A stretch of 64,000 nucleotides of DNA from Allomuricauda ruestringensis DSM 13258. Its GTDB lineage: Bacteria > Bacteroidota > Bacteroidia > Flavobacteriales > Flavobacteriaceae. The notes under the pieces were generated by a model. The model had not been told where the DNA came from. It made no database searches and saw nothing but the letters and a program-made list of their open reading frames with translations. This document shows positions 8,979 through 24,114 of this stretch, in pieces. The stretch is from the NCBI RefSeq assembly GCF_000224085.1, contig NC_015945.1:3030501-3094500 (forward strand), given 5' to 3'. Both the position numbers and the translations under genes were made by a program. Within the stretch, counting starts at the first letter, position 1, and each line of letters starts with the position of its first letter.

Positions 8979-9436
8979 TGGGACTCAAAAGGGCATTGGA
9001 AAATATTTTGGCGCATTTGCTGGTAGTACTGATGGGCCTCATGGTGCTGAATGTACTTTGGCAGGTGTTCAGTAGGTATGTAATAGGAGAACCAAGTGCA
9101 TTTACGGATGAACTCGCCCGATTTCTTATGATTTGGTTGGGATTGCTGGGAGCGGCCTACGTATCTGGAAAAAATGGTCATGTGGCAATAGATGTTCTGG
9201 CTAAACGTGCCAATGCCAAAAACCAAAAAGTATTGAAAGGATTGGTGTCTGGTTTCATCATCCTGTTCTGTCTGGCGGCAATGGTAACAGGTGGCGGATG
9301 GTTGGTGTACACTACCTATGAACTCAAACAGCTTTCCCCTGCATTGGGGTTGCCCTTGGCATACGTATATATCGTGATTCCCTTGAGCGGACTGATAGTG
9401 GTTTATAATAAAGTTGTGGACATAATAACGGATTGA
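8978..9436 (+). CDS. dctQ: TRAP transporter small permease (DctQ family)
   Basis: 152 residues from the ATG at 8978, which overlaps the dctP stop (TGATG); a GTG at 8975 would add one residue. Four transmembrane segments are predicted. The family motif around FSRYVIGEPSAFTDELARFLMIWLG and KNGHVAIDVL is present. It is the small membrane subunit of the Na+-dependent TRAP complex with DctM. It overlaps the next gene by four bases if that begins at TTG 9433. Confidence 0.92.
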   Translation: MGLKRALENILAHLLVVLMGLMVLNVLWQVFSRYVIGEPSAFTDELARFLMIWLGLLGAAYVSGKNGHVAIDVLAKRANAKNQKVLKGLVSGFIILFCLAAMVTGGGWLVYTTYELKQLSPALGLPLAYVYIVIPLSGLIVVYNKVVDIITD

Positions 9437-10737
9437 GCCTTATGGATTATATACCCTTACTTGTTTTGATCATTAGTTTTGTGGGTCTTTTGGCCATAGG
9501 TACTCCTGTGGCGTGGAGCATAGCTATTTCATCTATGTTGACCTTATTGGTCAGTGTTCCCTCCTTGCCCGCATTGGCGACCATATCACAGCGTATGGCC
9601 ACAGGCTTGGATAGTTTTGCACTGCTGGCCATCCCATTTTTTATATTGTCAGGGGAATTGATGAACCATGGAGGAATTGCCCACCGTTTGATAGCTTTTG
9701 CCAAAACCTTGGTCGGTGCCTTGCCCGGAGGACTCGCCCTAATCAATATTATATCGGCGATGTTCATGGGCGCCATTGCAGGCTCGGCCATGGCCTCGGC
9801 TTCGGCCATGGGGAGCATTCTCGGACCAGAAATGGAAAAAGAGGGCTATGACAAAGGATTCTCCACTGCTGTTAACATTACCTCGGCCACTACGGGATTG
9901 GTGATTCCCCCAAGTAACATTTTGATCGTGTATTCCTTGGCAAGCGGCGGGGCATCGATTGCCGCACTTTTCTTGGCCGGATATATTCCTGGTTTGATTA
10001 CCGGGTTGCTTTTGATGGTGGTCGCCATGTTTTGGGCGAAAAAGAAAGGATATGGTACCGGAGAGCGAAGTACTTTAGGTCAGGTTTTTAAAACCTTTGT
10101 TGATGCCGTTCCAAGCCTATTCTTATTGGTTTTGGTCATTGGGGGCATCGTAGCAGGAATATTTACAGCTACCGAAGCTTCGGCCATTGCTGTGCTCTAT
10201 AGTTTGGTCTTAGGTTTTATCTATAAGCAGATAACGTTTAAAAAACTGCCCAATATTTTTTTAAACGCCTCGGCCACTACCGCTGTTGTCATGCTATTGA
10301 TTGCCGCCTCCATGAGTATGTCTTGGGCACTCTCCTTTGAGCACATCCCACAGGACATCAGTGCAGGGCTTTTGTCCATAACCGATAACAAGGTAGCTCT
10401 ACTGCTCATCATAAATGTAATATTGTTGCTAGTCGGTGTTTTTATGGACATCACTCCGGCCGTGCTCATATTTACCCCCATATTTTTGCCTGTTGTAACA
10501 AAATTGGGGATAGATCCGGTACATTTCGGCATCATCATGATCTTGAACCTTTGCATTGGACTGTGCACACCACCTGTGGGTTCGGTACTCTTTGTGGGAA
10601 TAGGTGTAGCCAAAACATCCATTGAAAAAGTGATAAAGCCCCTGTTGCCTTTGTTTGTAGCTATGATCGTGGCCTTGTTCCTGATTACGTACATTCCAGC
10701 ATTGGCCTTGTGGTTGCCCGGCCTATTTGGCCTTTAA
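9433..10737 (+). CDS. dctM: TRAP transporter large permease (DctM family)
   Basis: 434 residues and about 12 membrane segments. Family motifs include FFILSGELMNHGGIA, GSAMASASAMGSIL, SATTGLVIPPSN and the late LCIGLCTPPVG. It forms the transport channel of the TRAP system. The TTG at 9433 gives a TTGA overlap with dctQ; an ATG at 9442 is the alternative start and would leave five bases between the genes. Together with dctP and dctQ it completes an uptake system for hexuronate across the inner membrane; there is no SusC/SusD in this operon. Confidence 0.94.
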   Translation: MSLMDYIPLLVLIISFVGLLAIGTPVAWSIAISSMLTLLVSVPSLPALATISQRMATGLDSFALLAIPFFILSGELMNHGGIAHRLIAFAKTLVGALPGGLALINIISAMFMGAIAGSAMASASAMGSILGPEMEKEGYDKGFSTAVNITSATTGLVIPPSNILIVYSLASGGASIAALFLAGYIPGLITGLLLMVVAMFWAKKKGYGTGERSTLGQVFKTFVDAVPSLFLLVLVIGGIVAGIFTATEASAIAVLYSLVLGFIYKQITFKKLPNIFLNASATTAVVMLLIAASMSMSWALSFEHIPQDISAGLLSITDNKVALLLIINVILLLVGVFMDITPAVLIFTPIFLPVVTKLGIDPVHFGIIMILNLCIGLCTPPVGSVLFVGIGVAKTSIEKVIKPLLPLFVAMIVALFLITYIPALALWLPGLFGL

Positions 10738-10765
10738 TCGAATTGTAGAATATAATTTTTAACTA

Positions 10766-12142
10766 ATGATACATAAAATGAACAAATTAAAATTCGGAAC
10801 ATTGGCACTCCTGCTGTGTTGGGGGTGTGCTGAAGCTCCCAAAGATGACACACCATGGATTGACCTATTTGATGGGACCCTCAACGGATGGAACCAAAAG
10901 GGCGGTGAGGCCAATTATACGGTAAAAGATGACATGATCGTGGGTTCCACGGTGCATGATACGCCCAATTCCTTTTTGACAACAGATCAGATGTACGACG
11001 ATTTTATCTTGGAATTGGAATACAAAGTGGATCCAACGATGAACTCGGGAATCCAAATACGAAGCAATAGCTTTCCTTATTATCAAAATGGAAGGGTGCA
11101 CGGCTACCAAATTGAAATAGATCCATCAGAAAGGGCATGGAGCGCTGGAATCTATGACGAAGGCCGTAGAGGTTGGCTCGTTAGTTTGGAAAATAATCCG
11201 GCTGCCCAAAAAGCCTTCAAACAAAATGATTGGAACCACTATCGCATCGAGGCGATCGCAGATACGATCCAAACCTGGATCAATGGAGTACCTGCTGCAC
11301 ATTTGATTGATGACAAAACGGCGAGTGGCTTTATTGCGCTTCAAGTGCACAGTATCGGAAAAGATCAAAAGGAAGGAACGGAGATTGCCTGGAAAAATAT
11401 CAAAATTTTGACCGACAGTCTTTCAAAATACAGTAAAGAAATGCCCTTAGCCCCAGTGATGACCAAAAACCAGCTTACCCTCGATGAGGAAAAGAACGGA
11501 TGGAAATTGTTATGGGACGGAGAGACCACTGTGGGATGGCGTGGAGCACGTCTTGATGATTTTCCAGAGAAAGGATGGGAAATTAAGGATGGCGTATTGA
11601 CCGTTCTGTCCTCCGGGGGCGAAGAATCGGCCGCTGGTGGCGATATTGTTACAACTGAGCTATATGGAGATTTTGAGCTCAAAGTGGATTTCAAATTGAC
11701 AGAGGGTGCCAACAGTGGCATCAAATACTATGTGGACACCGATTTGAACAAAGGGCCAGGCTCGTCCATCGGATTGGAATATCAAATTTTGGATGACGAA
11801 CGACATCCAGATGCTAAACTGGGTAACCATGAAGGTAGCCGTACGGTGTCATCTTTGTACGACCTTATACAGGCAGATGTCAATAAACCCATCAATCCTA
11901 TTGGAGAATGGAATACTGCCAGAATCGTTTCAAAAGACAAGCATGTGGAGCATTGGTTGAATGGTACAAAAGTTTTAGAATACGAGCGAAAAAGCGAAGC
12001 ATACCGCAAACTGGTCTCCGAAAGCAAGTATGTGAAATGGCCCAACTTTGGAGAGGTCGACAGGGGACACATATTGTTACAAGACCATGGAGATCATGTA
12101 AGTTTTAAAAACATCAAGATAAAACCTATTAAAAAGCAGTAA
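10766..12142 (+). CDS. Lipoprotein with two DUF1080 (3-keto-glycoside hydrolase/lyase type) domains
   Basis: 458 residues. The lipobox is CWGC with Cys21 (Cys17 if translation begins at the second Met, 10778). Two DUF1080 jelly-roll domains follow: about 28-215 (WIDLFDGTLNGWNQKGG, MNSGIQIRS, HGYQIEID) and about 240-456 (WKLLWDGETTVGWRGA, ANSGIKYYVD, LEYQILDD). Members of this Pfam family are known to act on 3-keto-glycosides, and laminarinase-like folds are typical. Beginning 28 bases after dctM and followed at 3 bases by a Gfo/Idh/MocA gene, it probably belongs to the same operon and acts in the periplasm on an oxidised glycoside. Whether both domains are catalytic is not clear. Confidence 0.85.
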   Translation: MIHKMNKLKFGTLALLLCWGCAEAPKDDTPWIDLFDGTLNGWNQKGGEANYTVKDDMIVGSTVHDTPNSFLTTDQMYDDFILELEYKVDPTMNSGIQIRSNSFPYYQNGRVHGYQIEIDPSERAWSAGIYDEGRRGWLVSLENNPAAQKAFKQNDWNHYRIEAIADTIQTWINGVPAAHLIDDKTASGFIALQVHSIGKDQKEGTEIAWKNIKILTDSLSKYSKEMPLAPVMTKNQLTLDEEKNGWKLLWDGETTVGWRGARLDDFPEKGWEIKDGVLTVLSSGGEESAAGGDIVTTELYGDFELKVDFKLTEGANSGIKYYVDTDLNKGPGSSIGLEYQILDDERHPDAKLGNHEGSRTVSSLYDLIQADVNKPINPIGEWNTARIVSKDKHVEHWLNGTKVLEYERKSEAYRKLVSESKYVKWPNFGEVDRGHILLQDHGDHVSFKNIKIKPIKKQ

Positions 12143-12145
12143 ACC

Positions 12146-13474
12146 ATGACTACAAGACGCGATTTCATAAAAAAAACAACTACAGGTACCGCTGCTGTTA
12201 CCTTGGGCGCTGCAGTATTTCCTTCTTGGGCGAATGCCCGAATTCTTGGAGCCAACGATCATATCAATTGTGCGGTAATCGGTGTAAGGAGCCGAGCCAA
12301 AGCACATGTGTTGGCGATTCACCAAGATGTCAACGCCAAGATTTTATACAGTTGTGATGTGGACGATACCATTCTGGAAGAACACAATGCTTGGTGCCAA
12401 GAGCGCATAGGATATGTACCGAAGGTAGAAAAGGATTTCCGTAAAATATTAGAGGATAAGGACGTGGATGCCATCTTTATTGCTACACCCGAACATTGGC
12501 ATGCTCCCATGGCCATTATGGGCCTACAGGCAGGAAAACACGTTTATGTAGAGAAGCCCTGTAGCCATAACCCTTATGAAAATGATTTGTTGGTTGCAGC
12601 TCAAAAGAAGTATGGAAAAAAAGTTCAGATGGGCAACCAACAGCGCTCGGCCAAAACTTCCATGTCGGCAGTGGAAGACATCAAAAAAGGTGTGATCGGA
12701 GACGTTTTCAAAGGAGAGGCTTATTATTCCAATAACCGCGGTTCCATTGGGCACGGAAAGGCAATTGAAGTACCCCAGACCTTAAACTGGGATATGTGGC
12801 AAGGTCCAGCGCCCCGAGAAAATTATCGGGATAACATCCACCCCTATAACTGGCATTGGTTCCGGAATTGGGGCACGGGAGAAATCCATAACAACGGTAC
12901 CCACGAGATTGATATTTGCCGCTGGGCTCTGGGCGTGGATCTGCCCGAAACGGTAACAGCGTTTGGGGGAAAGTACACTTATGATGATGACTGGGAATTC
13001 CCAGACAACCAGCAAGTGACTTATACATTCCCAGGAGATAAATTCATTACATGGACTTCCCACAGCCGTGGTATAATGAAGCCAGAGCGACCTGGACGTG
13101 GAATCACTATTTATGGAAGCAAAGGAGTAATCGAGCTGAGTCGAAATTTTTACAAGTTGTACGATCTTGGAGGTAATCCAATCAAAATTGAGTTTGAGAA
13201 AGAACTCAGTGCCACCACCAATACCCAAGGTATCGGCGGGCTGGATGTTGATCATGTGTCCAACTTCTTTAATGCTATCCGAAAAGATAACTCTCTAAAT
13301 TCTGATATAAGAGATGCAAGCGTTTCCACCATGCTCTGCCACTTGGGAAATATGGCCCACGATGCCGGGCATACCATCGAAGTAAATACCCAAACAGGCA
13401 AGGTCTTGAACAGTGAAAAAGCCATGCAGGGTTGGAAAAGGGAGTACGAAAAAGGCTGGGAACCTAAACTTTAA
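12146..13474 (+). CDS. Tat-exported Gfo/Idh/MocA family oxidoreductase
   Basis: 442 residues. A twin-arginine signal (TTRRDFIKK, hydrophobic stretch, then SWANA) precedes a Rossmann domain with a VIGVRSRAKAH dinucleotide loop, ATPEHWHAPMA and VEKPCSHN. The C-terminal domain has NWHWFRNWGTGEIHNNGTHEIDICRWAL, whose His residues are typical of this family. Tat export implies folding with bound NAD(P) before export, so the cofactor may be recycled on the enzyme. Such proteins paired with DUF1080 are known from 3-keto-glycoside pathways in Bacteroides. Substrate is unknown; a glucuronide or product of glucuronan breakdown would fit the operon. Confidence 0.88.
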   Translation: MTTRRDFIKKTTTGTAAVTLGAAVFPSWANARILGANDHINCAVIGVRSRAKAHVLAIHQDVNAKILYSCDVDDTILEEHNAWCQERIGYVPKVEKDFRKILEDKDVDAIFIATPEHWHAPMAIMGLQAGKHVYVEKPCSHNPYENDLLVAAQKKYGKKVQMGNQQRSAKTSMSAVEDIKKGVIGDVFKGEAYYSNNRGSIGHGKAIEVPQTLNWDMWQGPAPRENYRDNIHPYNWHWFRNWGTGEIHNNGTHEIDICRWALGVDLPETVTAFGGKYTYDDDWEFPDNQQVTYTFPGDKFITWTSHSRGIMKPERPGRGITIYGSKGVIELSRNFYKLYDLGGNPIKIEFEKELSATTNTQGIGGLDVDHVSNFFNAIRKDNSLNSDIRDASVSTMLCHLGNMAHDAGHTIEVNTQTGKVLNSEKAMQGWKREYEKGWEPKL

Positions 13475-13479
13475 ATGGT

Positions 13480-14655
13480 ATGAAGCGACGAGACTTTATG
13501 GTTAAAGGTAGTTTGGCCGGTTCCGCAGTCTTATATGCTCCAACAGTGCTGGGGTACGGAACCCACAGTCCAAACGAAACCATAAATGTTGGTATTGTTG
13601 GAACAGGGGACCGGGGCGGTGGACTTATCCCTTTCATCAACCAGATTCCCAATATGAGGGTAGTCGCCTGTTGTGACATCATTCCCTTTAGACTTAGCTC
13701 GGGACTTTCAAAAGTAGAAGGCAAGGCCAAAGGATATTCTGACTACAAAAAAATGTTGGAGGACAAGGATGTGGATGCCGTTTTGGTGGCAACTCCGTTC
13801 AGTACACATTCCAAAATCGTTGTCGATGCTTTACAGGCAGGAAAGCATGTGTACGGAGAAAAGACCATGGCAAAGGGATATGAGGGCATCAAGGAATTGG
13901 TAGCGGCGACCGATGCATCCAAGAGCATATTTCAAGCAGGTCACCAATATCATAGCTCCCGTTTATATTCACATATCGTGGACGAAATCAAACAAGGGAA
14001 AATAGGCAAGATAACAGCCTTTGAGTGCCAATGGAACCGAAATGGAAATTGGCGCCGTCCTGTACCCGACCCAAAATGGGAGCGCATGATCAACTGGCGA
14101 ATGTACCGCGAATATTCAGGTGGTCTTTTGGCCGAACTCTGTTCGCACCAACTGGATTTTGCCAATTGGGTATTGGATGCCACACCCGAAAAGGTCATGG
14201 GCATAGGGGGCATCGATTACTGGAAAGATGGCAGGGAAACCTATGACAATATACACCTTATCTACAGCTACCCCGAAGGGGTGCGGGCATCATTTACCTG
14301 CCTTACCAGTAATGCGATGGGCGATTACAAGGTCAAGGTAATGGGGGATAAAGGAACGTATATTTTGGATTATGTCAAGGCTTGGTACTATCCCGAGGGA
14401 AGTTACCAAAAAGAGATCGGTGAGGTCGATGGCGTTTCAGGGGCCACCTTAAATTGGGATCAAGGCCGGGGGATTCCATTGGAGTTTGACCATGAAGACC
14501 CCAGTAAGCAGGCTTTGATTGACTTCAGAGACAATATCATAAACAATACGCTGCCCGTTTCCAACGCCAAAACAGGTGCCATGGCCGCAGCTTGTGTGCA
14601 AATGGGACTGGACGCCATGTATAACGATAAAATTGTGGTCGATGCACGGATTTGA
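13480..14655 (+). CDS. Second Tat-exported Gfo/Idh/MocA family oxidoreductase
   Basis: 391 residues. It begins with KRRDFMVKGSLAG, a Tat-type signal, followed by a Rossmann motif (VGIVGTGDRGGG), VATPFSTHSK and GEKTMAKGYEG, where the usual EKP is replaced by EKT. The C-terminal domain has YREYSGGLLAELCSHQLDFANWVL. It starts five bases after the preceding paralogue and is the last gene of the operon. The pair may catalyse oxidation and back-reduction of a glycoside and its product, or may act on different substrates; sequence alone does not decide. It is clearly diverged from its neighbour, so the two are not a recent duplication. Confidence 0.88.
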   Translation: MKRRDFMVKGSLAGSAVLYAPTVLGYGTHSPNETINVGIVGTGDRGGGLIPFINQIPNMRVVACCDIIPFRLSSGLSKVEGKAKGYSDYKKMLEDKDVDAVLVATPFSTHSKIVVDALQAGKHVYGEKTMAKGYEGIKELVAATDASKSIFQAGHQYHSSRLYSHIVDEIKQGKIGKITAFECQWNRNGNWRRPVPDPKWERMINWRMYREYSGGLLAELCSHQLDFANWVLDATPEKVMGIGGIDYWKDGRETYDNIHLIYSYPEGVRASFTCLTSNAMGDYKVKVMGDKGTYILDYVKAWYYPEGSYQKEIGEVDGVSGATLNWDQGRGIPLEFDHEDPSKQALIDFRDNIINNTLPVSNAKTGAMAAACVQMGLDAMYNDKIVVDARI

Positions 14656-15102
14656 TGATAGGTATGATCTGCCCCATATTATTGCTAAATAATCAGTTAG
14701 TCCCTCAATTTTAACCCATTGGTAAAATATACGGAATTATTTTCTTGAGCTTGTAACTGTCCGATAAATATTGAAAAAGCTACTAAGATTAAAACTCGTG
14801 ATGTCATTGTATTTGGTTTACTTTTTATTCTAATAGATGCTCCATATAGAATGACAATGCTTATTTTCAATACCCTGACTTATTTGCAGTTTTTTTCAAC
14901 TTTGTATGATTAAGCTTTCTTTTTTATTTGCGGATATTTTTGATGCAATAGATATTGAAATCCACTATAATCGGATAATTGTCCTATTGTCTCAACTGGC
15001 TGATAGGGGGCAGGACAAACTACTTCAAATTGGCATCCATCCGAGGAAAGCTAAAGAGGCTGGACGAATGGTTACCCAACAGGATTTGGTCTTATTCTTT
15101 GT
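14656..15102. other. Intergenic region after the hexuronate operon, no gene recognised
   Basis: 447 bases between convergent transcripts. It is AT-rich, and an imperfect palindrome (TTTTAA...TAAAA around 14709-14728) is the only structure seen. A plus-strand frame from 14906 runs into the MarR gene on the other strand; it has no recognisable similarity and is not called. Confidence 0.5.
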
Positions 15103-15708
15103 TTACGTAATCCTTTCGTGTTCAGGGCAGTCCAAACGAATTTCAGATTCAGTAAGTTTTGTTTTCAGTAGATTACAATAATGATTTCCGTTTTCACCAT
15201 TGTAAAAAGAGCAGGTAAAACACATGCGTTGAATGGTAATGACACCAGACTTGTTTAGGTCATAAATCAATTTCAGCAACCCGTTAAGCATTGTTGTTTT
15301 CTGTTCTTGTGTTAGTTTTTCAATCGGTTGTTCGATGGAAGAAGCAAAGAATGATGCTTTTTTAGCAATATTTTTTCCTTCGTCAGTAAGTGAAAGGGAA
15401 TAGCTTCTTGTGTCGGTAGGGTCTGTTTCTTTGGTAACCAATTCTTTGGAGAGTAAAACCCTAACACTATCGCTAATAGTGGCTTTTGTCATATTGAACT
15501 CGTCTGCCAAATATCCCACTTTACATTTTTCCAAGGAATGGAAAGAGATGAATATCAAAATTTGAATTTGTATCGGGCTTAATGAGTTTTCTTTACTTTC
15601 GTTCCAAAGCAATACCCTGAATGCTTCCGAAATACGTTCCAAAGCAACCACAATTCGGCTTTCTATTTTTTGGTTTTGTTCGTTTAAATTGAATGATGGA
15701 TATTTCAT
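15103..15708 (-). CDS. MarR-family regulator with C-terminal Cys/His cluster
   Basis: 201 residues from the ATG at 15708, which overlaps the upstream gene's stop (ATGA); a longer frame to 15738 is less likely. The winged helix covers about residues 45-125 (LSPIQIQILIFIS, GYLADEFNMTKATISDSVRVLLSKELV, DPTDTRSYSLSLTDEGK). After about residue 155 an unusual tail holds Cys163, Cys166, Cys178 and Cys194, with His176 and His197, suggesting a metal, Fe-S or thiol-redox sensor. It is last in a four-gene operon, and palindromes near TTAGGAnTCCTAA lie before the operon and before the CPVC gene, so it probably autoregulates. Confidence 0.88.
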   Translation of the reverse strand: MKYPSFNLNEQNQKIESRIVVALERISEAFRVLLWNESKENSLSPIQIQILIFISFHSLEKCKVGYLADEFNMTKATISDSVRVLLSKELVTKETDPTDTRSYSLSLTDEGKNIAKKASFFASSIEQPIEKLTQEQKTTMLNGLLKLIYDLNKSGVITIQRMCFTCSFYNGENGNHYCNLLKTKLTESEIRLDCPEHERIT

Positions 15709-16061
15709 AGTGTCATATTTTTGCCCACATAGACCCAAGCCTTTTTTCCTGATTCAAAAGTTTCAAGTATTCTATGGTATTCACTTACTTCATAGTTGTC
15801 GGTTTCAGCAAGCTCGGTGTTCGTAATTTCAAATAGCATGCCTTCAATAAAATCACTTTCGTGTGCGGATTTTACGGCAATTGGGTGATGTTCCAGCTGA
15901 CTTTTAGCAAGGACTGTTGTATCTGTAATTTGTATTTTTTCAGTTTTATACCCGATCAATCTATCTCGCTCTCCTTTTAAGGTCCGACCGTAATTTTCAA
16001 TTTGTACCTTCTCTAACTGTAAGGTGCCGTAAGAGAATAATAAATGTGTTGTCCCTTTCAT
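15705..16061 (-). CDS. Gamma-glutamylcyclotransferase-like (AIG2/GGCT) protein
   Basis: 118 residues from the ATG at 16061 (ATGA overlap with the DUF2024 gene). The N-terminal LFSYGTLQLEKVQ is the substrate-loop motif (YGTL) of the GGCT/AIG2 fold. EGMLFEI and the late KAWVYVG also fit. The catalytic Glu of GGCT enzymes may be the Glu in ETDNYE around residue 92, but this was not verified by alignment. A role in cleaving gamma-glutamyl amides or glutathione-like compounds would suit a thiol-stress operon; the true substrate is unknown. Confidence 0.85.
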   Translation of the reverse strand: MKGTTHLLFSYGTLQLEKVQIENYGRTLKGERDRLIGYKTEKIQITDTTVLAKSQLEHHPIAVKSAHESDFIEGMLFEITNTELAETDNYEVSEYHRILETFESGKKAWVYVGKNMTL

Positions 16062-16321
16062 CTGCAATTTTCCATTTCAACGATAAAATACCCTTTTTGC
16101 TTAATCTCAGCTTCCCATTGGGGCCGTACTGTTTCCATGTGGCAGAACCTACATTCTTTTGATGTTAAAGCTCGTCCTTCTTGAGCTTTGGTTTTTAAAT
16201 ATTCTTTACCATAACCGTAAATTAAGGCTGTATCCCTAATTTCTTCAGGAGCAATAATGTCAAAGTGCATTACGCTACCGTCTTTTTTGGTTACATAGGT
16301 GTCCCAAACTGCTACTTTCAT
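16058..16321 (-). CDS. DUF2024 family protein
   Basis: 87 residues from the ATG at 16321; an upstream extension of the frame to 16426 would overlap the preceding gene and is rejected. MKVAVWDTYVTKKDGSVMHFDIIAPEE is the typical DUF2024 opening; the later part contains CRFCH (Cys-x2-Cys-His), a possible metal or redox site. No enzymatic function is known to me. It is the second gene of the MarR operon and is preceded by a 35-base palindrome that separates it from the exported protein gene. Confidence 0.88.
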   Translation of the reverse strand: MKVAVWDTYVTKKDGSVMHFDIIAPEEIRDTALIYGYGKEYLKTKAQEGRALTSKECRFCHMETVRPQWEAEIKQKGYFIVEMENCR

Positions 16322-16348
16322 TTTTGTTTCATTTTGATAAAAAGGAAA

Positions 16349-16383
16349 GCCCTGTAAAGATAGGAATCCTAACTTTACAGGGC
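16349..16383. promoter_or_regulatory. 35-base near-perfect palindrome: hairpin with an embedded MarR-type operator
   Basis: GCCCTGTAAAG (16349-16359) and CTTTACAGGGC (16373-16383) are perfect 11-bp arms, and the spacer itself contains TAGGAATCCTA (16361-16371). On the minus strand it follows the stop of the exported-protein gene and is followed by TTTCCTTTTT, so it can act as a leaky terminator. Its core matches the TTAGGAnTCCTAA motif found before the operon and before the thioredoxin-like gene. Confidence 0.65.
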
Positions 16384-16391
16384 AAAAAATA

Positions 16392-17120
16392 TTACTTGAC
16401 TTTATAGGGTAGCGACAGGTCGCCACTTGCTACTGAATACACTTTGTAAACACCAAGCATTGGCTTGTCTCCCCCAACTTCTCCGCTTGTATTGACTTGC
16501 ATAAAGGCTGTAACTCCATCATAGGAAAAATTCGTTTTGTTGTTCATTCGATAATCGGGAACAACTACTCGTATTGTATTCTTGTTTGTGATGACTTGAA
16601 AACCTGGTGAGTCCATATACATGGGCATTCCCGGATTGGTCGGCGGTAAAACCACACTAGTGTCTTTTGGGTCAAATTGCTTTACGGCCAAACCGCCTTC
16701 CACACGGTTGTCATCGGTTAAGACCACCCAATGCGGATGCCAAACAATGCCGTCATTGACAAAATTTAGGTCAGCATTTTCGTCCCAAAGTGGCGTGTCA
16801 TCAAAGTCGGGATGTGAGGTCAAGGCAAGTGCCACAATGCCTTCGGTATCGCCAAAGCCAACATCGGTAGATTTTAAAGTAGTTGGAAATACGTAACCTA
16901 AAACAGGTGCTCCATTCATTTGACCTGCTGGTGTTGGCGTTGTTTTCCCTGCTGTTCCTTTTACGGTAATTTCCCAAATGGTAGCTGCAATGTCATCCGA
17001 GTGCTTTACGCTCACATTTTTAATTTGGAAATCGTCATTGTCGTAGTCTTTGCATTTGTCGCAGGCATAACTCTTAACAGCGAAAAGGGAAACTCCAAGA
17101 AGAAAGAATAATTGTTTCAT
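16392..17120 (-). CDS. Exported protein of unknown function with N-terminal CxxC
   Basis: 242 residues. A Sec signal peptide is followed by ACDKCKDYDND, so the mature protein begins close to a CxxC pair. The body looks like a secreted beta-rich domain with GYVFPTTLKSTDVGFG, an HPHW segment that could bind metal, and VVVPDYRMNNKTNF. I do not recognise a family. It is first in the operon with DUF2024, GGCT and MarR, preceded by candidate MarR operators at 17147-17180. Exported and redox-related is the most that can be inferred. Confidence 0.75.
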   Translation of the reverse strand: MKQLFFLLGVSLFAVKSYACDKCKDYDNDDFQIKNVSVKHSDDIAATIWEITVKGTAGKTTPTPAGQMNGAPVLGYVFPTTLKSTDVGFGDTEGIVALALTSHPDFDDTPLWDENADLNFVNDGIVWHPHWVVLTDDNRVEGGLAVKQFDPKDTSVVLPPTNPGMPMYMDSPGFQVITNKNTIRVVVPDYRMNNKTNFSYDGVTAFMQVNTSGEVGGDKPMLGVYKVYSVASGDLSLPYKVK

Positions 17121-17146
17121 TATTTATTGAATTTAAATTGTTAAAA

Positions 17147-17180
17147 GTTAGGAGCCTTACAATAAATTAGGACTCCTAAC
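17147..17180 (-). promoter_or_regulatory. Candidate MarR operators upstream of the exported-protein operon
   Basis: TTAGGACTCCTAA (17167-17179) is a perfect 13-bp palindrome around one central base. About 20 bases nearer the gene, TTAGGAGCCTTA (17148-17159) is a degenerate copy. The outer GTTAGGAG (17147-17154) and CTCCTAAC (17173-17180) also form perfect 8-bp arms. The spacing, about two helical turns, suits two dimers on one face. Confidence 0.6.
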
Positions 17181-17197
17181 TTATTGATATAAATTTT

Positions 17198-17431
17198 TTA
17201 GCCTTTTACATCGGCCACAGATGCGCCAAAATTGATGTGCAATACATTCCCATTTGGTGTTAGCAAAGCTGGAACAGAGTTTACTCCTGCTTTTTCTGCT
17301 TCTGCGATTCGGTCGCGGTCTTCGCCAATGTGAACAAGTTCAACATTTTCCACACCAATTAGATTAACGATGTCGTGCTCTGCACTCACGCATACTGGAC
17401 ATCCTGCGTGATAGAAAATTGATTTAGCCAT
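17198..17431 (-). CDS. Thioredoxin/glutaredoxin-like protein with CPVC motif
   Basis: 77 residues from MAKSIFYHAGCPVCVSAE; the upstream extension of the frame to 17497 runs through the candidate promoter and is rejected. The fold is that of a minimal thioredoxin: CPVC active site early, then HIGEDRDRIAEAEKAGVNSVPALL with the cis-Pro, then a final strand. It probably performs thiol-disulfide exchange in the cytoplasm. It is a separate transcript from the following operon, but shares the AGGAnTCCT motif in its promoter, so the MarR protein probably controls it. Confidence 0.85.
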   Translation of the reverse strand: MAKSIFYHAGCPVCVSAEHDIVNLIGVENVELVHIGEDRDRIAEAEKAGVNSVPALLTPNGNVLHINFGASVADVKG

Positions 17432-17478
17432 TTGATTAAGGTTTAAATTGTGTTTTGGCACTATTGCCGATGTAAATA

Positions 17479-17502
17479 TAGTAAGGAATCCTAACAAAAT
17501 AA
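17479..17502 (-). promoter_or_regulatory. Candidate MarR operator in the promoter of the CPVC gene
   Basis: AGGAATCCT (17484-17492) is a palindrome around one base within TAAGGAATCCTAAC. Read on the minus strand, a TTTTG precedes it and TATATTTA follows it about 16 bases later, resembling the -33 and -7 elements of Bacteroidota. The operator would thus sit between the promoter boxes, which suits repression. Confidence 0.5.
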
Positions 17503-17663
17503 ATTATTTAAAGAATTTATTTCTGGTTACGTATATAGATACCTCAAAATTCAAATTGCAAAGACTGGCCTAAAAACAGAAAGCTCCTAAAAAGGGCTTA
17601 AACAGGTCTCTTTTCCACTGTTCAAGGGCTTGTACAACGGTTACTGTCGTTATAGTAAGTGGT

Positions 17664-19340
17664 TTACTTTTTCTCATTAATAGTGTCCTTTGCTTTTTTT
17701 AATGCGTCATCAATGTTGTCACAAATGTTGTGTTTTCCCAAGTCTTCATAAACTTTCATCTTGAGAAATTCTCTTTTAATTTCATCATTGGCTCCTGAAA
17801 TAATTATTGTTGTTCCATGGGATTGTAGGTACTTGTATATTTCTTTCAGTCGGTTTATACCTGTCGCATCTATGAATGGAACGTGTCTTACTCTTAAAAT
17901 TAAAATTTCTGGCTCTTGCTTCAAGTCTTTAATTACTTCTTGAAACTTTTGAGACGCACCAAAAAACAAAGGGCCGTTGATTTCATAAATCAAGACACCT
18001 TTCGGAATCTCAGGTATTTCTTCGTCAAAAAGTCGTTCGCCATTTTCATCTTCAGTTTTGAAATAACTCATTGCGTTTTGGATAGATGTTGATTCGCTCA
18101 TTCGTTTCATAAATATAAAACTGGACAAAATCATTCCTACTTCAATAGCAATAATCAAGTCGAAAAATACAGTTAAGAAAAAGGTTGTGAGCAACACAAT
18201 TACGTCCATTCTGTTGCTTTTTAGTAAAGCCTTAAAGTGGTGCCATTCACCCATATGCCAAGCAACTACTACCAAAATACCTGCTAAACAGGATAATGGA
18301 ATTAATTTTGCCACAGGTGCAAAAAGTAACATAATCAATAATAAAACAATAGCGTGAACAATTCCTGAAATGGGTGTTCTACCGCCATTTTTAATGTTTG
18401 TTGCTGTACGAGCAATCGCACCTGTTGCAGGTATTCCCCCAAAAAGTCCTGAAAAGATATTGGCTGTTCCTTGTGCCACCAATTCCATATTAGAACGGTG
18501 TCTGCCTCCCATCATGCCATCAGCCACGACAGCAGAAAGTAGTGATTCGATACTACCCAATAATGCAATGGCAATAGCGGGTTGAATTAGTTGTTGGATG
18601 GTAGCAAAGTCTATGTTAGGAAATGTAGGTAAACTAATCTGGTTAGGTATTTCACCAAATTTTGTTTCAATGGTTTCAACGGGAAGTTCGAAGAAATAAA
18701 CAGCTATTGTGCTTAATGAGATAGCTACAATAGAACCTGGGATTTTTGATGTGATTTTATTGAAATTTAGAGATATCAAGACCGTTCCAACAGCAATTGA
18801 AAAAGCTATCCAATTTATTCTTTGGAAATTTAGAAAATAGGCTCTCCATTTTTCAATGAAATCGGCAGGGACTTCGCCCATTTCTAATCCGAAAAAGTCT
18901 TTCATTTGAGATGAAAAAATTATAATGGCAATACCACTTGTAAAGCCAACAATTAACGGATAAGGAATAAATTTTAAATAATTGCCAAGCCGAGCCAATC
19001 CAAGACCAATAATGAGAAACCCTGCCATAAATGTGGCTATCGTTAGTCCACCTATTCCGTGAGTTTGAACAATTCCGTAAACAATAACGATAAATGCACC
19101 TGTTGGTCCTCCAATTTGTACACGACTACCACTCAGCGCAGAAATTGTCAAACCCGCAATTACTGCCGTTATAAGTCCTTTTTCCGGTGATACTCCTGAT
19201 GCAATGGCAAAAGCAATAGCCAATGGTAATGCTACTATTCCTACAATTATTCCGGCAATTACGTCTTTAGTAATTTGTTTTTTGCTGATGCCTTCTTTGA
19301 GAAGGGTTAAAAGTTTAGGGGTGAATTCATTGTTTTTCAT
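17664..19340 (-). CDS. SulP family anion transporter with STAS domain
   Basis: 558 residues from the ATG at 19340 (MKNNEFTPKLL); the frame extends to 19427, but that segment runs into transposase debris. The SulP core has 10-14 membrane segments, with AGIIVGIVALPLAIAFAIASG, SGSRVQIGGPTGAF and the GFTSGIAIIIF segment. The C-terminal STAS domain (about 430-550) has RVRHVPFIDATGINRLKEI. Transports sulfate, bicarbonate or similar anions across the inner membrane. Sulfate supply would fit the neighbouring thiol genes, but no MarR-type palindrome was seen upstream, so co-regulation is not supported. Confidence 0.93.
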   Translation of the reverse strand: MKNNEFTPKLLTLLKEGISKKQITKDVIAGIIVGIVALPLAIAFAIASGVSPEKGLITAVIAGLTISALSGSRVQIGGPTGAFIVIVYGIVQTHGIGGLTIATFMAGFLIIGLGLARLGNYLKFIPYPLIVGFTSGIAIIIFSSQMKDFFGLEMGEVPADFIEKWRAYFLNFQRINWIAFSIAVGTVLISLNFNKITSKIPGSIVAISLSTIAVYFFELPVETIETKFGEIPNQISLPTFPNIDFATIQQLIQPAIAIALLGSIESLLSAVVADGMMGGRHRSNMELVAQGTANIFSGLFGGIPATGAIARTATNIKNGGRTPISGIVHAIVLLLIMLLFAPVAKLIPLSCLAGILVVVAWHMGEWHHFKALLKSNRMDVIVLLTTFFLTVFFDLIIAIEVGMILSSFIFMKRMSESTSIQNAMSYFKTEDENGERLFDEEIPEIPKGVLIYEINGPLFFGASQKFQEVIKDLKQEPEILILRVRHVPFIDATGINRLKEIYKYLQSHGTTIIISGANDEIKREFLKMKVYEDLGKHNICDNIDDALKKAKDTINEKK

Positions 19341-19432
19341 CTTTTTAGATAGTGAAGTGATTTTTAGACTTTTTTTGGATCGAAAGAGAGGGCTACGGAT
19401 ATTTGTGTTGCGCCACCCAAATTCCATAGCCC

Positions 19433-20127
19433 ATCTACAAAGTACTTGACAAAGATATCATAGAAACGGAAATAGTACCCAACATCCCGATGCCCAGGCG
19501 CGGTTTTTCCCCGAGGGTGGAGCTGTCCGAAATCGTCATTGCCGTTCTTTACAAGATGAAGACAGGTGTGCAGTGGGAATATTTGCCCGTAACTGCTCTA
19601 TTTTCCCAAAGGGCATTGGCCTGACAGGGCGTTTACTGCCATTTAGGGAAATGGTGCCTATCGGGTACCCTTTACCCATGTTGGACGGAAATACTTGAAA
19701 AATACAGGGACAGGCTCGACCTCTCCGGCATGGACCTTGACAGGAGCCACTCCTGCCCTAAGGGGCGGACAGGGCGTGGAGTACCAAGGTCGCGGCAACA
19801 CTTGAGAATGCCAAGATAGATGTCAACGGTCTGTTCCTCAATGCGGATGCAGGTTTTGATCCCAAGGACTTCAGGTCGACCTGTGCAGCCAAGGAAATCA
19901 ACGCCAACGTCTGTTTCAATAAAAGGAACGGGAACTTGGAGAGGGACGAATATTTTGATCAGGAACTATATGATGAAAGATATATAGAGCGCACCAATGT
20001 ATGGATGGACAGCTTCCGCTCACTGCTCAACAGGTTCGATACCACCAGGGAAAACTGGAAAGGGTTCAACTACCCCTCCTTCATCGTGCTGGCCCTGAAA
20101 AAATTCAAAATCGAAAAGTCTAAATGA
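19433..20127 (+). pseudogene. Decayed IS4/IS5-type transposase
   Basis: Translation in pieces gives transposase text in at least three frames: YKVLDKDIIETEIVPNIP and VELSEIVIAVLYKMKTG from 19436 to a TGA near 19624; then QGVYCHLGKWCLSGTLYPCW and SGMDLDRSHS in a shifted frame; then ATLENAKIDVNGLFLNADAG through to ERTNVWMDSFRSLL and NWKGFN at the end. The central part carrying much of the catalytic core is shortened (jump near 19795), and the start codon position now reads ATC. A dead copy, possibly with part of the element lost; no clear terminal repeats were identified. Confidence 0.85.
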
Positions 20128-20464
20128 GTTCAATTTATGGTTCAGTACAGTTTTCTTATTGTTCAATAAATCTTTTGGGAGCACAAAAGCTTAAATGTAA
20201 GAATTTTGCAGAAGACTTGTGTGGTATAAAAGGAAGGTTGTATGTCGACTTAAAATAAAAAGTCAGATGTAGTTTTTTGCTCTCTCCAACAAGCTGTCTA
20301 TTCAAAAAAGTGGGGCAAGTTACTTTCAAAAATCACCTATGGGGCAGAAAATTCAAGTAAATAGGTAGAAATAAATTATAAGGTAGAATAATTGTATTTG
20401 ATGGATTGTCAGTAATTAAACGACATATTCTTTTCTTTTTCAAAACCAACTTTGTTATGTCGAC
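20128..20464. other. Intergenic, AT-rich, nothing recognised
   Basis: 337 bases between the dead transposase and the Nudix-type regulator. No ORF, RNA gene or notable hairpin was seen; it may contain the right end of the decayed element. Confidence 0.5.
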
Positions 20465-21232
20465 TCACCTTAATTCACTTTTGTCACCTATATATGGTTT
20501 TAGCCGATTGTCGAATGGATTGGGTTTAAAACTGTACAGATAGGGAGCTTTATGGGAGTTTCCGGAAAACCTCTTTTCATGGCGCAACAAGGTATTTGCA
20601 CTCAACATTTTTCGTTGGAAACCGCTACGGTTAAAGGAGGTGCCGGTAATGGCCTCATATACCTGTTGTAGTTCTTTCATGGTAAATTTTTTGGGAAGCA
20701 AATTCATGCCCAGTAGTTTTTTGTCCAGATTTTCTCGAAGGGTTTCAAGTGCTTTTTCAATAATTTGTTGGTGGTCCATCATCAAGGGTGGTAGCTCATC
20801 TAACGAATACCAATCGATTCCATCGGATAATGGGTCTGGTTTGGGTATCACTTTTTCAAAGTTGATCAGGGCATAATAGGCAACGGTGATAAACCGGTCC
20901 AATAACCAACCATGCGATGCTATGTCCAGCCCGTTCATTTCCAAAATCCGTTTCATGGGCTCAGGGTCAAACCTTTTCACATCACCAAAAGTTTGAAATT
21001 GTTCCAAATAGATGTTCTTGAGCCCTGTCCTCTCGCTCACCCCTTTTTTAACAGCTTCTTCTAAATTCTCATTGCGTCTAACAAAACCGCCGGGAAGCGC
21101 ATAAAGTCCAGTATTTCGATATTCCAGTACAAGTATTTTCAATTTCTTGCCGTTAAAACCAAAAATAACTGAATCAAATGCTAGATTTGGAATGTAGTCT
21201 TCTTTGTTAAGGTTCTTTTTTTTTAGGGTCAA
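20465..21232 (-). CDS. Second Nudix-related transcriptional regulator (NrtR/AraR-like)
   Basis: 255 residues. The Nudix domain (about 15-150) begins NLAFDSVIFGF and has ALPGGFVRRNENLEEAV, but the REUXEE core reads KGVSER, so catalysis is doubtful. The winged helix (about 165-235) contains LLPKKFTMKELQQVYEAITG, NRSGFQRKML and PYLYSF, closely parallel to the regulator at 1916-2584. It is divergent from a carboxylesterase gene with a near-perfect palindrome between them, so it most likely controls that gene and itself. The ligand is unknown; related proteins sense sugars or ADP-ribose-like molecules. Confidence 0.86.
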   Translation of the reverse strand: MTLKKKNLNKEDYIPNLAFDSVIFGFNGKKLKILVLEYRNTGLYALPGGFVRRNENLEEAVKKGVSERTGLKNIYLEQFQTFGDVKRFDPEPMKRILEMNGLDIASHGWLLDRFITVAYYALINFEKVIPKPDPLSDGIDWYSLDELPPLMMDHQQIIEKALETLRENLDKKLLGMNLLPKKFTMKELQQVYEAITGTSFNRSGFQRKMLSANTLLRHEKRFSGNSHKAPYLYSFKPNPFDNRLKPYIGDKSELR

Positions 21233-21274
21233 AATGTAATTTTTTTCTAAATAAAGTATATTTTCTCATAAAAA

Positions 21275-21306
21275 CAAAGTACTATTGTGACAACATGTAA
21301 CAATAG
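21275..21306. promoter_or_regulatory. 25-bp near-perfect palindromic operator between regulator and esterase
   Basis: CTATTGT (21282-21288) and ACAATAG (21300-21306) are perfect arms; inside them ACA and TGT also pair, leaving only one mismatched pair and a 3-base centre. On the minus strand, TTG (21301-21303), 18 bases and GTACTTTG (21275-21282) resemble a Bacteroidota promoter for the regulator, so the palindrome would cover it. Confidence 0.7.
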
Positions 21307-21320
21307 AAAAACAAGTTATA

Positions 21321-22949
21321 ATGAAAAAGCGATTACTTTCCGTGGCGTTGGTTCTCTTTGTAATGTCGGAACTGACCTCACAACAGAAAAACGCCTTTCC
21401 TGTTCAAGCCAAACTCAAGAATGGTGTTATTGAGGGGCTTTACGATACTCATACGGGTATCCAAAAATATTTTGGAATACCTTTTGCAAAACCACCGATT
21501 GGTGAATTACGATGGAAGGCCCCTCAGCCCTTGGACCCTTGGGAGGGTGTGGTAGAGACAAAGCGTTTTGGTCCAAGGCCTATGCAAGCTATGGTGTTCG
21601 GCGATATGAAATCCCGCTCCGATGGCGTAAGCGAGGATTGTCTTTACCTTAACGTTTGGACACCTGCCAAGCGTAACGATAAAAACCTTCCCGTTCTGGT
21701 ATACTTTTACGGGGGCGGAAACGTTGCGGGGGATGCATCGGAATATCGATATGACGGTGAAAGTATGGCGAAAAAGGGAATTGTGGTGGTTACCACCAAT
21801 TATCGCCTGAATATTTTTGGGAATCTGGCTCATCCAGAGCTGTCCTCCGAGGCTCCTTACAAGGCATCGGGAAATTATGGACAGTTAGATCAAAATATGG
21901 CCCTTCAATGGGTACAGGAAAACATAGCTGCCTTTGGCGGAGACCCAAATCAGGTGACCATAGCAGGGGAATCGGCCGGATCTATTGGGGTTAGTGTACA
22001 GATGGCATCCCCATTGTCCAAAGACCTGATTGCAGGAGCTATTGGGGAAAGTGGAGCTGCCATTCCGCCAACTATGGCACCAATTCCTTTAGCAGAGGCG
22101 GAAAAGCAAGGTGTACAATTTTTGGAAAATGCCGATATCGAGAACATTTCTCAATTGAGAAAATTGAGTACACGCGAGCTGTACGAGATTTATAATGAAT
22201 CCAAGAAATTTGGCTTTCCTATGGTTATTGACGGGTATTTACTTACCAAGTCCTTGCCCGAAACCTTTGCCTCACAGGAACAGGCACAGGTTCCATTATT
22301 GGTTGGATGGAATTCTGCCGAGATACCTGGCATGGCCTTTACCCAGGGCCCCATTACAAAAGAGGTGTTTGTAGCCAAAGTGAAGGAGGCCTATCCAGAG
22401 AATTATCAAACTGTATTGAATCTGTATCCACATAGTACGGAAGAAGAACTTCAATGGGCAGCAACGAACCTTGCTTCCGACCGTTTTATAGCCTATAGTA
22501 CATGGAAGTGGTTCGACTTACACCGTAAGAACAGTGATCAACCCGTATATCGCTATCTATACAGTAAAATCAGACCCCCATTAAAGAACAAAAACCTGGC
22601 ATCTGGATTGGCGGGTGGTACCGTGGAAAAAAATTCCAATGCCCCACAAATGCCCAAGCCCATCGGCGCGCCACATGCAGCTGAAATCGAATACGCTATG
22701 GGTAATCTGCACCTTGTGGATGATTATGCCTGGACCGCCGAGGATTACAAGGCTTCCGAAACCATGCAGCAGTTTTTTGCCAATTTTATTAAGAGTGGAA
22801 ATCCCAATGGAAAAGACTTGCCCAATTGGGAAGCAGTAGAGCCAAAAGAAAATGAACCCCCCGTGATGATCATAGATACGGAGAGCAAATTGACCAAGGC
22901 CGTAGATGATGTACGTTACGAGTTTTTGGACAAGGATTACAAAAATTAA
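21321..22949 (+). CDS. Secreted type-B carboxylesterase
   Basis: 542 residues. An N-terminal signal peptide is followed by the carboxylesterase/cholinesterase fold: KYFGIPFAKPP, SEDCLYLNVWTP, an oxyanion segment FYGGGN (usually HGGGF) and the nucleophile elbow GESAGS with Ser218. The later Glu and His of the triad should lie around residues 330 and 445 (PHAAEIEYAMG), positions estimated by eye. It hydrolyses carboxylic esters in the periplasm or outside the cell. The single-gene unit divergent from a Nudix regulator suggests substrate-induced expression, possibly for an acylated sugar or plant/algal ester. Confidence 0.92.
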   Translation: MKKRLLSVALVLFVMSELTSQQKNAFPVQAKLKNGVIEGLYDTHTGIQKYFGIPFAKPPIGELRWKAPQPLDPWEGVVETKRFGPRPMQAMVFGDMKSRSDGVSEDCLYLNVWTPAKRNDKNLPVLVYFYGGGNVAGDASEYRYDGESMAKKGIVVVTTNYRLNIFGNLAHPELSSEAPYKASGNYGQLDQNMALQWVQENIAAFGGDPNQVTIAGESAGSIGVSVQMASPLSKDLIAGAIGESGAAIPPTMAPIPLAEAEKQGVQFLENADIENISQLRKLSTRELYEIYNESKKFGFPMVIDGYLLTKSLPETFASQEQAQVPLLVGWNSAEIPGMAFTQGPITKEVFVAKVKEAYPENYQTVLNLYPHSTEEELQWAATNLASDRFIAYSTWKWFDLHRKNSDQPVYRYLYSKIRPPLKNKNLASGLAGGTVEKNSNAPQMPKPIGAPHAAEIEYAMGNLHLVDDYAWTAEDYKASETMQQFFANFIKSGNPNGKDLPNWEAVEPKENEPPVMIIDTESKLTKAVDDVRYEFLDKDYKN

Positions 22950-23003
22950 TCCTACTTGTTAGAAAAACAGCGATAAGGTGCCTTTGTTGTCGCGCATCTT
23001 TTC

Positions 23004-23040
23004 TACAGGGGGCAATGCCTTTTAGGCATTGCCCCCTGTA
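23004..23040. terminator. Perfect 16-bp stem-loop between convergent genes
   Basis: TACAGGGGGCAATGCC (23004-23019) pairs without mismatch to GGCATTGCCCCCTGTA (23025-23040) over the loop TTTTA. It lies 54 bases past the esterase stop and 52 bases past the end of the convergent Xre gene, the position of a bidirectional terminator. Neither flank has a clear T-run, which is unusual for an intrinsic terminator. Confidence 0.65.
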
Positions 23041-23092
23041 CCCATTATAGGTACAATATCGAAAACAAACATGCATTTTAAGCAGGTCGCAG

Positions 23093-23320
23093 TTATCTAG
23101 CAATTGTGCTTTGTTGGTCATCGACATATTCCAAGATGTCGCCTGGTTGGCATTCCAATACATTGCAAATAGATTCCAGCGTACTGAACCTAATTGCTTT
23201 GGCCTTGCCCGTTTTAAGTATTGAAAGATTTGCCAGTGTCAACCCTACTTTCTCGGAAAGTTCATTTAGGGACATCTTCCTCTTGGCCATTACCACATTC
23301 AAATTTACTATAATAGCCAT
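23093..23320 (-). CDS. Xre/Cro-CI type HTH regulator (YozG-like)
   Basis: 75 residues, essentially one helix-turn-helix domain: MAKRKMSLNELSEKVGLTLANLSILKTGKAKAIRFSTLESICNVLEC, then PGDILEY. This minimal type is widespread next to DUF2975 membrane proteins, as here, where it starts three bases after the DUF2975 stop. It probably binds its own promoter; the membrane partner may modulate it. The first Met gives MAIIVNLNVVMAK; translation from the second Met would still keep the whole domain. Confidence 0.9.
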   Translation of the reverse strand: MAIIVNLNVVMAKRKMSLNELSEKVGLTLANLSILKTGKAKAIRFSTLESICNVLECQPGDILEYVDDQQSTIAR

Positions 23321-23323
23321 ATA

Positions 23324-23812
23324 TTAAACGGTTAGATCATTTTCAGATTTGATATTCAAACCATTTTGAAACAGTTTGAGTAAAACTGCAGCAAATACAG
23401 CCACTATAAATGGAACAACTGCCAATATTAACCCCATTAATATAATGCCTGGCGCATCATCAACCTCTCCCACGTAATAGATATACGGCATCCCTCCAGT
23501 GTACAACAAACTTATTGTAAAGGCACTTAACTTAATTTTATTTAAGGCCTTGATCGATGCATTTGAAAATGCTTTGTTCCTATCAATATAAAGCAGTAGC
23601 CTGTGGGCCTGGTAGAGTGCATACAGGAAAGGAATTTCAGTCACACATATCCCCAATAAAATTGGCCTAAATATCCCCATGCTATCAGCGGCAATGGATA
23701 CATACAATAAAAAGCCAAACAAACAGATTGCTGCGATAGCTAAAAATAAAACAACAAATTTTAGTAAGAGGGTGGAGCCTCGATCTGTAATTTGTGATTT
23801 GATGTTTTTCAT
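23324..23812 (-). CDS. DUF2975 membrane protein
   Basis: 162 residues with four predicted membrane segments: about 17-40, 50-70 (PILLGICVTEIPFLYALYQ), 95-115 and 125-150. LLLYIDRNKAFSNASIKALNKIK between segments two and three is the typical DUF2975 signature. Function is unknown; the constant pairing with a YozG-like Xre protein suggests a two-gene regulatory or stress unit. Upstream of 23812 the DNA is very AT-rich. Confidence 0.88.
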   Translation of the reverse strand: MKNIKSQITDRGSTLLLKFVVLFLAIAAICLFGFLLYVSIAADSMGIFRPILLGICVTEIPFLYALYQAHRLLLYIDRNKAFSNASIKALNKIKLSAFTISLLYTGGMPYIYYVGEVDDAPGIILMGLILAVVPFIVAVFAAVLLKLFQNGLNIKSENDLTV

Positions 23813-24114
23813 TTATCTCAAATTTTGAATACAGAGGCAAATAAAATAAAAATTTATTGAAAAACAACAAAAAATTATCGAATAAAACAAAAAGTTGATG
23901 AGGATTGAAAATATGTCAGTTTCTATTAGGAAATTTTTAAGAACCTCTGCCTTTCTTTTCATTATTTAACCAATGAAAGTGAGTTTAAATTGCCACTTTG
24001 ACATTTCAAAAACTATTTTTATGAGAATAATGTATGATTCATGGTTTGGAATGCATTTTGACTGATTATCAATCGGTATGTTCCAATAGTTTAACATTTA
24101 AAAAATTTTAGATT
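23813..24114. other. AT-rich divergent intergenic region
   Basis: 302 bases between the DUF2975 gene and the small ORF at 24115. It must contain promoters in both directions, but no consensus pair stood out, and no RNA gene was recognised. Confidence 0.5.

Follow-up and report, generated by a model that had tools for sequence, protein, structure and literature searches.

The window considered here is a stretch of 64,000 nucleotides from the forward strand of Allomuricauda ruestringensis DSM 13258 (NC_015945.1, positions 3,030,501 to 3,094,500), and our subject is a set of five head-to-tail genes on its minus strand, which run from 17431 to 15103 in the order thioredoxin-like, exported CxxC, DUF2024, GGCT-like and MarR. 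An earlier note on this DNA had described a small redox operon ending in a MarR gene, and its account of the five genes holds, with Pfam matches to MarR_2, GGACT and DUF2024. The DUF2024, GGCT-like and MarR genes overlap one another, and the start codons of the small proteins were assigned by conservation among relatives. The genes, and the added domain of the regulator, are as follows:

17198..17431, minus strand: thioredoxin-like protein, 77 amino acids, with a CPVC motif
16392..17120, minus strand: exported CxxC protein, 242 amino acids, CxxC near its start, predicted to be beta-rich
16058..16321, minus strand: DUF2024 protein, 87 amino acids, with a CxxCH motif (PF09630, E 4.2e-36)
15705..16061, minus strand: GGCT/AIG2-like protein (PF06094, GGACT, E 1.2e-8)
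15103..15708, minus strand: MarR-family regulator, 201 amino acids from its ATG (Pfam MarR_2)
15127..15222, minus strand: C-terminal cysteine domain of the MarR protein (CxxC, 11 residues, C, 15 residues, C)

Three of these genes are preceded by a 13-mer palindrome of the TTAGGAnTCCTAA type, which we refer to as the operator. The copies lie where the earlier note had placed them, with no more than one mismatch each, and the degenerate copy that it reported near 17148 is also present:

17482..17494, no strand: operator 1, TTAGGATTCCTTA on the minus strand, one mismatch, before the thioredoxin-like gene
17167..17179, no strand: operator 2, TTAGGACTCCTAA, no mismatches, before the exported-protein gene
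16360..16372, no strand: operator 3, TTAGGATTCCTAT on the minus strand, one mismatch, before DUF2024
17148..17160, no strand: degenerate palindrome copy, three mismatches, weak on its own

Only sites with no or one mismatch are meaningful, because at three mismatches the window holds 22 matches, fewer than the mean of 34 in shuffled sequence. At one mismatch or fewer, the organism's own genome (3.84 Mb) holds nine sites, three of which fall within this 1.1 kb, where the rate outside the locus (six in 3.84 Mb) predicts about 0.002. The other six are scattered: three are well inside long reading frames, one sits 12 nt before an open reading frame of 165 amino acids, and two precede SusC-like genes. 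The last two (L009:2389-2401 and L010:2556-2568) are one-mismatch palindromes in near-identical leaders, about 135 nt before the likely ATG. Judged by these positions, the palindrome looks like mainly a single-locus element of one local operon in this genome, with the three further one-mismatch sites outside long reading frames as possible additions.

The site is conserved together with the regulator. Relatives of MarR were examined at 80 loci (the best 80 of 89) from Bacteroidota, Balneolaceae, Ignavibacteria and Acidobacteria, assigned by record title; counts out of 81 below add the window. Around these 80 MarR genes (870,655 bases) there are 120 sites at one mismatch or fewer, as against 3 for the reversed pattern. 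With the window included and up to two mismatches allowed, a site precedes the thioredoxin-like gene in 73 of 74 loci, usually 45–53 nt from the start codon, the exported-protein gene in 24 of 29, and DUF2024 in 31 of 58. A search of 199 Flavobacteriaceae genomes shows MarR in 45, and a search of 395 genomes taken across the phylum shows it in 28 (own genome counted in each). Since these genomes were picked by protein and not by motif, they allow a separate comparison: 23 of 29 Flavobacteriaceae loci and 18 of 28 loci from the phylum-wide sample have a site at one mismatch or fewer in the 1.5 kb before MarR, whereas 89 permuted half-sites put to the same test gave means of 0.17 and 0.10 and maxima of 5 and 1, respectively. 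On the Flavobacteriaceae side the comparison used the 29 non-own matches, out of 44, that were given as loci; on the phylum-wide side it used every one of the 28 non-own matches, and genomes G032 and G125 occur in both samples.

Exact sites follow the same pattern. The 44 MarR-bearing genomes contain 30, of which 19 lie within 2.1 kb upstream of MarR by hand count, and a twentieth heads a thioredoxin-exported-DUF2024 set that has no adjoining MarR and lies 26 kb from it, an arrangement that suggests MarR control at a distance. The other 10 equal the number found in 44 genomes without a MarR match, drawn from 154 such genomes. The distant set (L125:58-1513) is a second one with its own exact palindrome, and its exported protein starts like a lipoprotein. 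Elsewhere, away from the MarR locus, an exact palindrome (L139:1501-1513) tops a hairpin-like repeat (AGCCGC...GCGGCT) beside a chaperonin-like gene.

Plasmid records carry more distant relatives of MarR, and those aligned from outside the Bacteroidota are 24–31% identical to the window protein. The pattern [AT]TAGGAnTCCTA[AT] falls in the interval from 400 nt upstream of the MarR match to 60 nt into it at 14 of 22 plasmid loci, and each of 29 permuted cores occurs at none; the 22 loci come from 33 records, with L159 and L160, found through the exported protein, set aside, and several of the rhizobial loci among them are near-identical. In Nostoc there are two exact copies, one before a thioredoxin gene and one between tpx and MarR, and Alphaproteobacteria also have the palindrome before their distant MarR relatives; the Deinococcus site has one mismatch. 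Sites at two loci (L157 and L173) are placed at the heads of gene sets, and in L173 one precedes TlpA, superoxide dismutase (SOD) and MarR genes and another precedes the exported protein and an AhpD-like gene. Furthermore, MarR directly adjoins a homologue of the exported protein (E 3e-41 or better) in Rhizobium SL42, Sinorhizobium fredii, Shinella, Pararhizobium, Defluviimonas, Phaeobacter and Deinococcus. The Vibrio campbellii record L160, unannotated in this part, has the Cys4 motif of the MarR family within 8.6 kb around the exported-protein homologue. Between the Cys4-MarR and exported-protein genes of Phaeobacter (L159:4734-4746) lies a differing palindrome, TAGCGACTCGCTA, which may be a changed operator. 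The earlier note had staked its proposal on conservation of the palindrome upstream of orthologues, and both the counts around the 80 MarR genes and those at the plasmid loci go its way. Its larger claim of a MarR-controlled regulon is supported in part, in that the palindrome tracks this MarR family beyond the Bacteroidota; in the own genome the regulon looks like one local operon.

Two features near the operators bear on how they might work:

17473..17480, minus strand: TATATTTA, one base after operator 1 and one letter off TAnnTTTG, which we take to be the Bacteroidota -7 promoter element
16348..16384, minus strand: 37-nt inverted repeat (hairpin), just after the stop codon of the exported-protein gene, with operator 3 at its top

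TAnnTTTG directly follows the site in the thioredoxin leaders of 61 of 74 loci, as compared with 0.33% of random positions. Because a protein bound at operator 1 would block RNA polymerase, the placement of the site next to this element suggests repression as the simplest reading. Likewise, the extra sites that many Flavobacteriaceae loci have about 40–60 nt before MarR itself suggest self-control. Farther along the thioredoxin leader, after the promoter element, is a GGCA-n4-TGCC inverted repeat (17457-17468) that may form an RNA hairpin or be a second protein site; GGCA(n3-5)TGCC is present in 34 of 74 thioredoxin leaders and at 0.5% of random places.

Operator 3 has a different setting, and in relatives a site of its type starts 14–20 nt past the upstream stop codon. 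The 37-nt hairpin around it has a predicted RNA fold of -23.3 kcal/mol (z -6.48), and an alignment of 31 loci, 26 of them distinct, has standard pairs in 95.1% of its pair cells, as against at most 54.4% in slid controls. Cells changed on both sides number 32, compared with 9.4 in shuffles, and the covariation score is 0.301 compared with 0.169; neither the number of pairs changed on both sides (6 versus 4.2, reached by 30 of 500 shuffles) nor the number of further pair types (12 versus 12.3) stands out. We read operator 3 as embedded in a hairpin that selection has maintained and that perhaps terminates transcription of the genes before it; a scan for consensus terminators does not list it. 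This hairpin is also what lends some plausibility to a different explanation, in which the palindromes form RNA hairpins or are bound by an unrelated regulator, and MarR is merely adjacent: site 3 does top a covarying structure 14–20 nt past a stop codon. However, site 1 adjoins a promoter element, the arms around site 3 change in pairs while most letters of the 13-mer stay, and the motif accompanies MarR in other phyla and also heads a gene set that has no adjoining MarR; we regard this explanation as highly improbable.

The regulator combines a MarR winged-helix domain with a C-terminal extension whose four cysteines (C163, C166, C178 and C194, numbered from the ATG) are invariant in all 81 loci and kept in 17 of 17 sequences of a wider alignment. 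A pattern search finds this Cys4 motif in 21 of 24 plasmid loci; translation of two of the exceptions (L162 and L177) shows the motif with an altered last residue, and the third is L178. The first cysteine of the protein, C62, is conserved in only 49 of 81 loci. None of the NCBIfam MarR equivalogs scores above its curated cut-off, the best being BilQ with 39.9 bits against 125.

Comparison with known MarR proteins reveals both likenesses and differences. OhrR, MgrA and SarZ are repressors of antioxidant genes that use cysteine-based sensing, and the window protein shares their fold, with the hydroperoxide regulator 1z91 and MgrA (2bv6) among its profile matches. OhrR, however, has its reactive cysteine in the N-terminal helix and adjoins an ohr/osmC gene, whereas the window protein has no cysteine in its first 60 residues from the ATG and four in the added domain; its operator is also a different one. 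None of the five operon genes in the window is ohr/osmC, and a gene for an OsmC-fusion protein adjoins the Sphingopyxis copy; the comparison covered these loci. SlyA and RovA have half-sites of the type TTAG...CTAA, and in this they resemble the window operator, but theirs is a 12-bp operator with another centre, and they are not known to have a Cys4 domain. BmoR of Bacteroides fragilis, likewise a Bacteroidota MarR repressor tied to thiol/disulfide genes, is reported to repress an oxidoreductase gene and to have a different operator, with inverted repeats that contain TTTCC (PMC6158253); for OsbR, too, the published account gives an operator or cysteines that differ from those of the window MarR. 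The operator strings were not found in the literature searched, where subscription papers are mostly not covered, so that an earlier description is possible.

AdcR and ZitR, which bind zinc within the core fold, are among the top structural matches of the window MarR domain, but the window protein carries its cysteines in an extra domain and scores far below the NCBIfam cut-off for AdcR (33 bits against 175). One alternative is a metal-responsive regulator of the AdcR or ZitR type, whose Cys4 site would bind zinc or copper while the exported His/Met-rich protein and DUF2024 would handle the metal. Among those structural matches, though, AdcR and ZitR score no better than FabT, MepR and a good number of further MarR proteins. 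In addition, the Phaeobacter and Deinococcus homologues have other residues in place of Met, no named metal transporter is seen in the annotated neighbour tables, and oxidants better match the SOD, catalase and redoxin genes described below. We consider a metal response of this type unlikely.

What the operon does must be approached through its other proteins and their neighbours. The thioredoxin-like protein belongs to the thioredoxin-like group, being related to PDB 2k8s, 'Thioredoxin' (E 2.8e-25), and having the CPVC motif, with Pfam thioredoxin matches that are sub-threshold. The DUF2024 protein matches PDB 2hfq (E 2.1e-20). The exported family is large: 6,410 homologues reach E 1e-3 or better. 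A Pfam search of the window protein returned no family, and none of the 120 homologues listed has a Pfam domain or a functional name. DUF2024 is reported in one paper to be metal-binding. The earlier note had given every protein a cysteine motif or a glutathione/gamma-glutamyl connection; the CPVC, CxxC and CxxCH motifs are there, but the GGCT-like protein has no cysteine at all, and the glutathione link is weak, since just 9 of the 81 loci were found to have the GGCT-like gene and others have a truncated globin (PF01152) in its slot. Its thiol/redox theme is supported by gene neighbours only.

The slots of the operon can be filled by different genes. Among the 81 loci, 25 have the order Trx-DUF2024-MarR, 15 have Trx-Exp-DUF2024-MarR, and six have all five genes; globins appear in several orders, and an exported protoglobin (PF11563) occupies the slot of the thioredoxin or of the exported protein. 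Of 40 genomes that have this MarR, 21 also have DUF2024, compared with 1 of 40 that lack it (Flavobacteriaceae samples of 40 from 44 MarR-positive and 40 from 154 MarR-negative genomes). Beyond two Muricauda/Allomuricauda loci, DNA matches longer than 150 bases to window positions 9001-24000 are confined to the operon, at about 66% to 86% identity, and a metagenome-assembled Balneolaceae genome shows 83% identity over 614 nt of MarR, a distribution that suggests transfer of the operon as a whole. A gene for a SulP-type transporter with a STAS domain (17664-19427) lies upstream of it on the minus strand, outside the part that matches Muricauda relatives. On the other side, the roughly 425 bp (14657-15081) that separate an oxidoreductase cluster from the operon find no counterpart in L037, an Allomuricauda relative in which the blocks matching either side are only 8 nt apart. 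In L017 the operon has an HPP transmembrane gene (5036-5665) inserted after the thioredoxin-like gene and before DUF2024, and immediately upstream are genes for RIC, a hemerythrin-like protein and a 2Fe-2S ferredoxin.

The plasmid loci were also examined for their neighbours. At 10 of the 16 that are annotated, the surrounding 4 kb contain genes with antioxidant, thiol or heme functions: catalase, SOD, AhpD-like 'peroxidase-related enzyme', tpx, redoxin/TlpA, HTHP or globins. The Hymenobacter locus has catalase, HTHP and protoglobin; others have catalase with truncated hemoglobin, tpx with thioredoxin and globin, catalase with an AhpD-like gene, SOD with TlpA and an AhpD-like gene (L173), or a redoxin, an AhpD-like or a TlpA gene.

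We favour, with reasonable but not firm confidence, the interpretation that the operon is an oxidant/thiol-stress regulon under the local control of a MarR-family repressor that carries an extra Cys4 domain at its C-terminal end. What the analysis shows is how the genes are ordered, where the sites lie, that site and regulator are conserved together, that a site overlaps the promoter element, and which genes lie nearby. In the mechanism that we propose, the resting MarR dimer would bind TTAGGAnTCCTAA directly upstream of the -7 element and block the promoters of the thioredoxin-like, exported and DUF2024 genes, and hence its own gene. A reactive oxidant or related thiol-reactive species would then alter the Cys4 site, taken here as a metal-thiolate or iron-sulfur centre, and the DNA would be released. 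Once induced, the CPVC thioredoxin-like protein would reduce disulfides, and the exported and cytosolic metal or heme proteins would bind or detoxify reactive species, with globins, catalase, HTHP, SOD, AhpD-like proteins or redoxins presumably substituted in different lineages.

Several observations weigh against this interpretation. In 27 of the 58 loci with DUF2024, the 130 nt before that gene contain no site at two mismatches or fewer, five of the 22 plasmid loci (four Paraburkholderia and Hymenobacter) have no clear site, and Phaeobacter (L159) lacks the site. The oxidative part rests on neighbours, and the 10 of 16 plasmid loci stand without a base rate, while the remaining six (Spirosoma, Phaeobacter, Sinorhizobium fredii and three Paraburkholderia) have no such genes within 4 kb. 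Around the 81 close loci, the catalase, tpx, MOSC and AhpD-like references match no open reading frame, and HTHP and redoxin match at one locus each; our confidence is lowered because the close loci lack the antioxidant genes of the plasmid loci. Finally, per-residue model confidence (pLDDT) is about 60–70 in the C-terminal domain and about 40 in its last residues, and because this is modest, the Cys4 cofactor is a guess.

It is also worth considering a narrower role, in which the operon would be a specific nitric-oxide/nitrosative response: nitric oxide would destroy a Cys4 iron-sulfur cluster, and the globins and other heme proteins would remove it. The truncated globins and exported protoglobins in the operon slots fit this, as do RIC-like genes within 6 kb at 5 of 80 loci (L017, L018, L023, L050 and L051; run against Pfam for L017 only), NnrS adjoining the Defluviimonas copy, the HPP gene within the L017 operon, and the origin of 2k8s and 2hfq, which are proteins of Nitrosomonas europaea, an ammonia oxidiser. 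Yet in the same two samples of 40 Flavobacteriaceae genomes RIC occurs in 22 with MarR and 22 without, and nirK above the cut-off in 14 and 12, so that neither is linked to MarR, and the SOD, catalase and tpx neighbours point to oxygen species. Because RIC and nirK do not co-occur with MarR, a purely nitric-oxide role is disfavoured; we think it improbable, if less so than a metal response, and favour a general oxidant/thiol-stress role over it with moderate confidence.

Because the palindrome also precedes the same regulator family in several bacterial phyla, it points to a switch that is widespread and apparently undescribed, and that probably serves to defend the cell from oxidants or from reactive chemicals of a related kind. 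A more far-reaching proposal, which may be correct but which we advance tentatively, is that the Cys4-MarR proteins are a previously undescribed family with a near-universal operator, [AT]TAGGAnTCCTA[AT], shared by at least Bacteroidota, Acidobacteriota, Cyanobacteria and Pseudomonadota and present in Deinococcota with one mismatch, and that they would sense reactive species via a metal or iron-sulfur centre and control a new exported metal- or heme-binding defence protein, DUF2024 and interchangeable globins. A metal or iron-sulfur centre of this kind is not known in MarR proteins, and it is unusual for the operator of a MarR protein to stay almost unchanged from phylum to phylum. The finding would give a testable function to three groups that lack an assigned one, namely DUF2024, the exported family and the MarR subfamily with the added cysteine domain, and the conservation of the operator across phyla would make regulons predictable from sequence alone.

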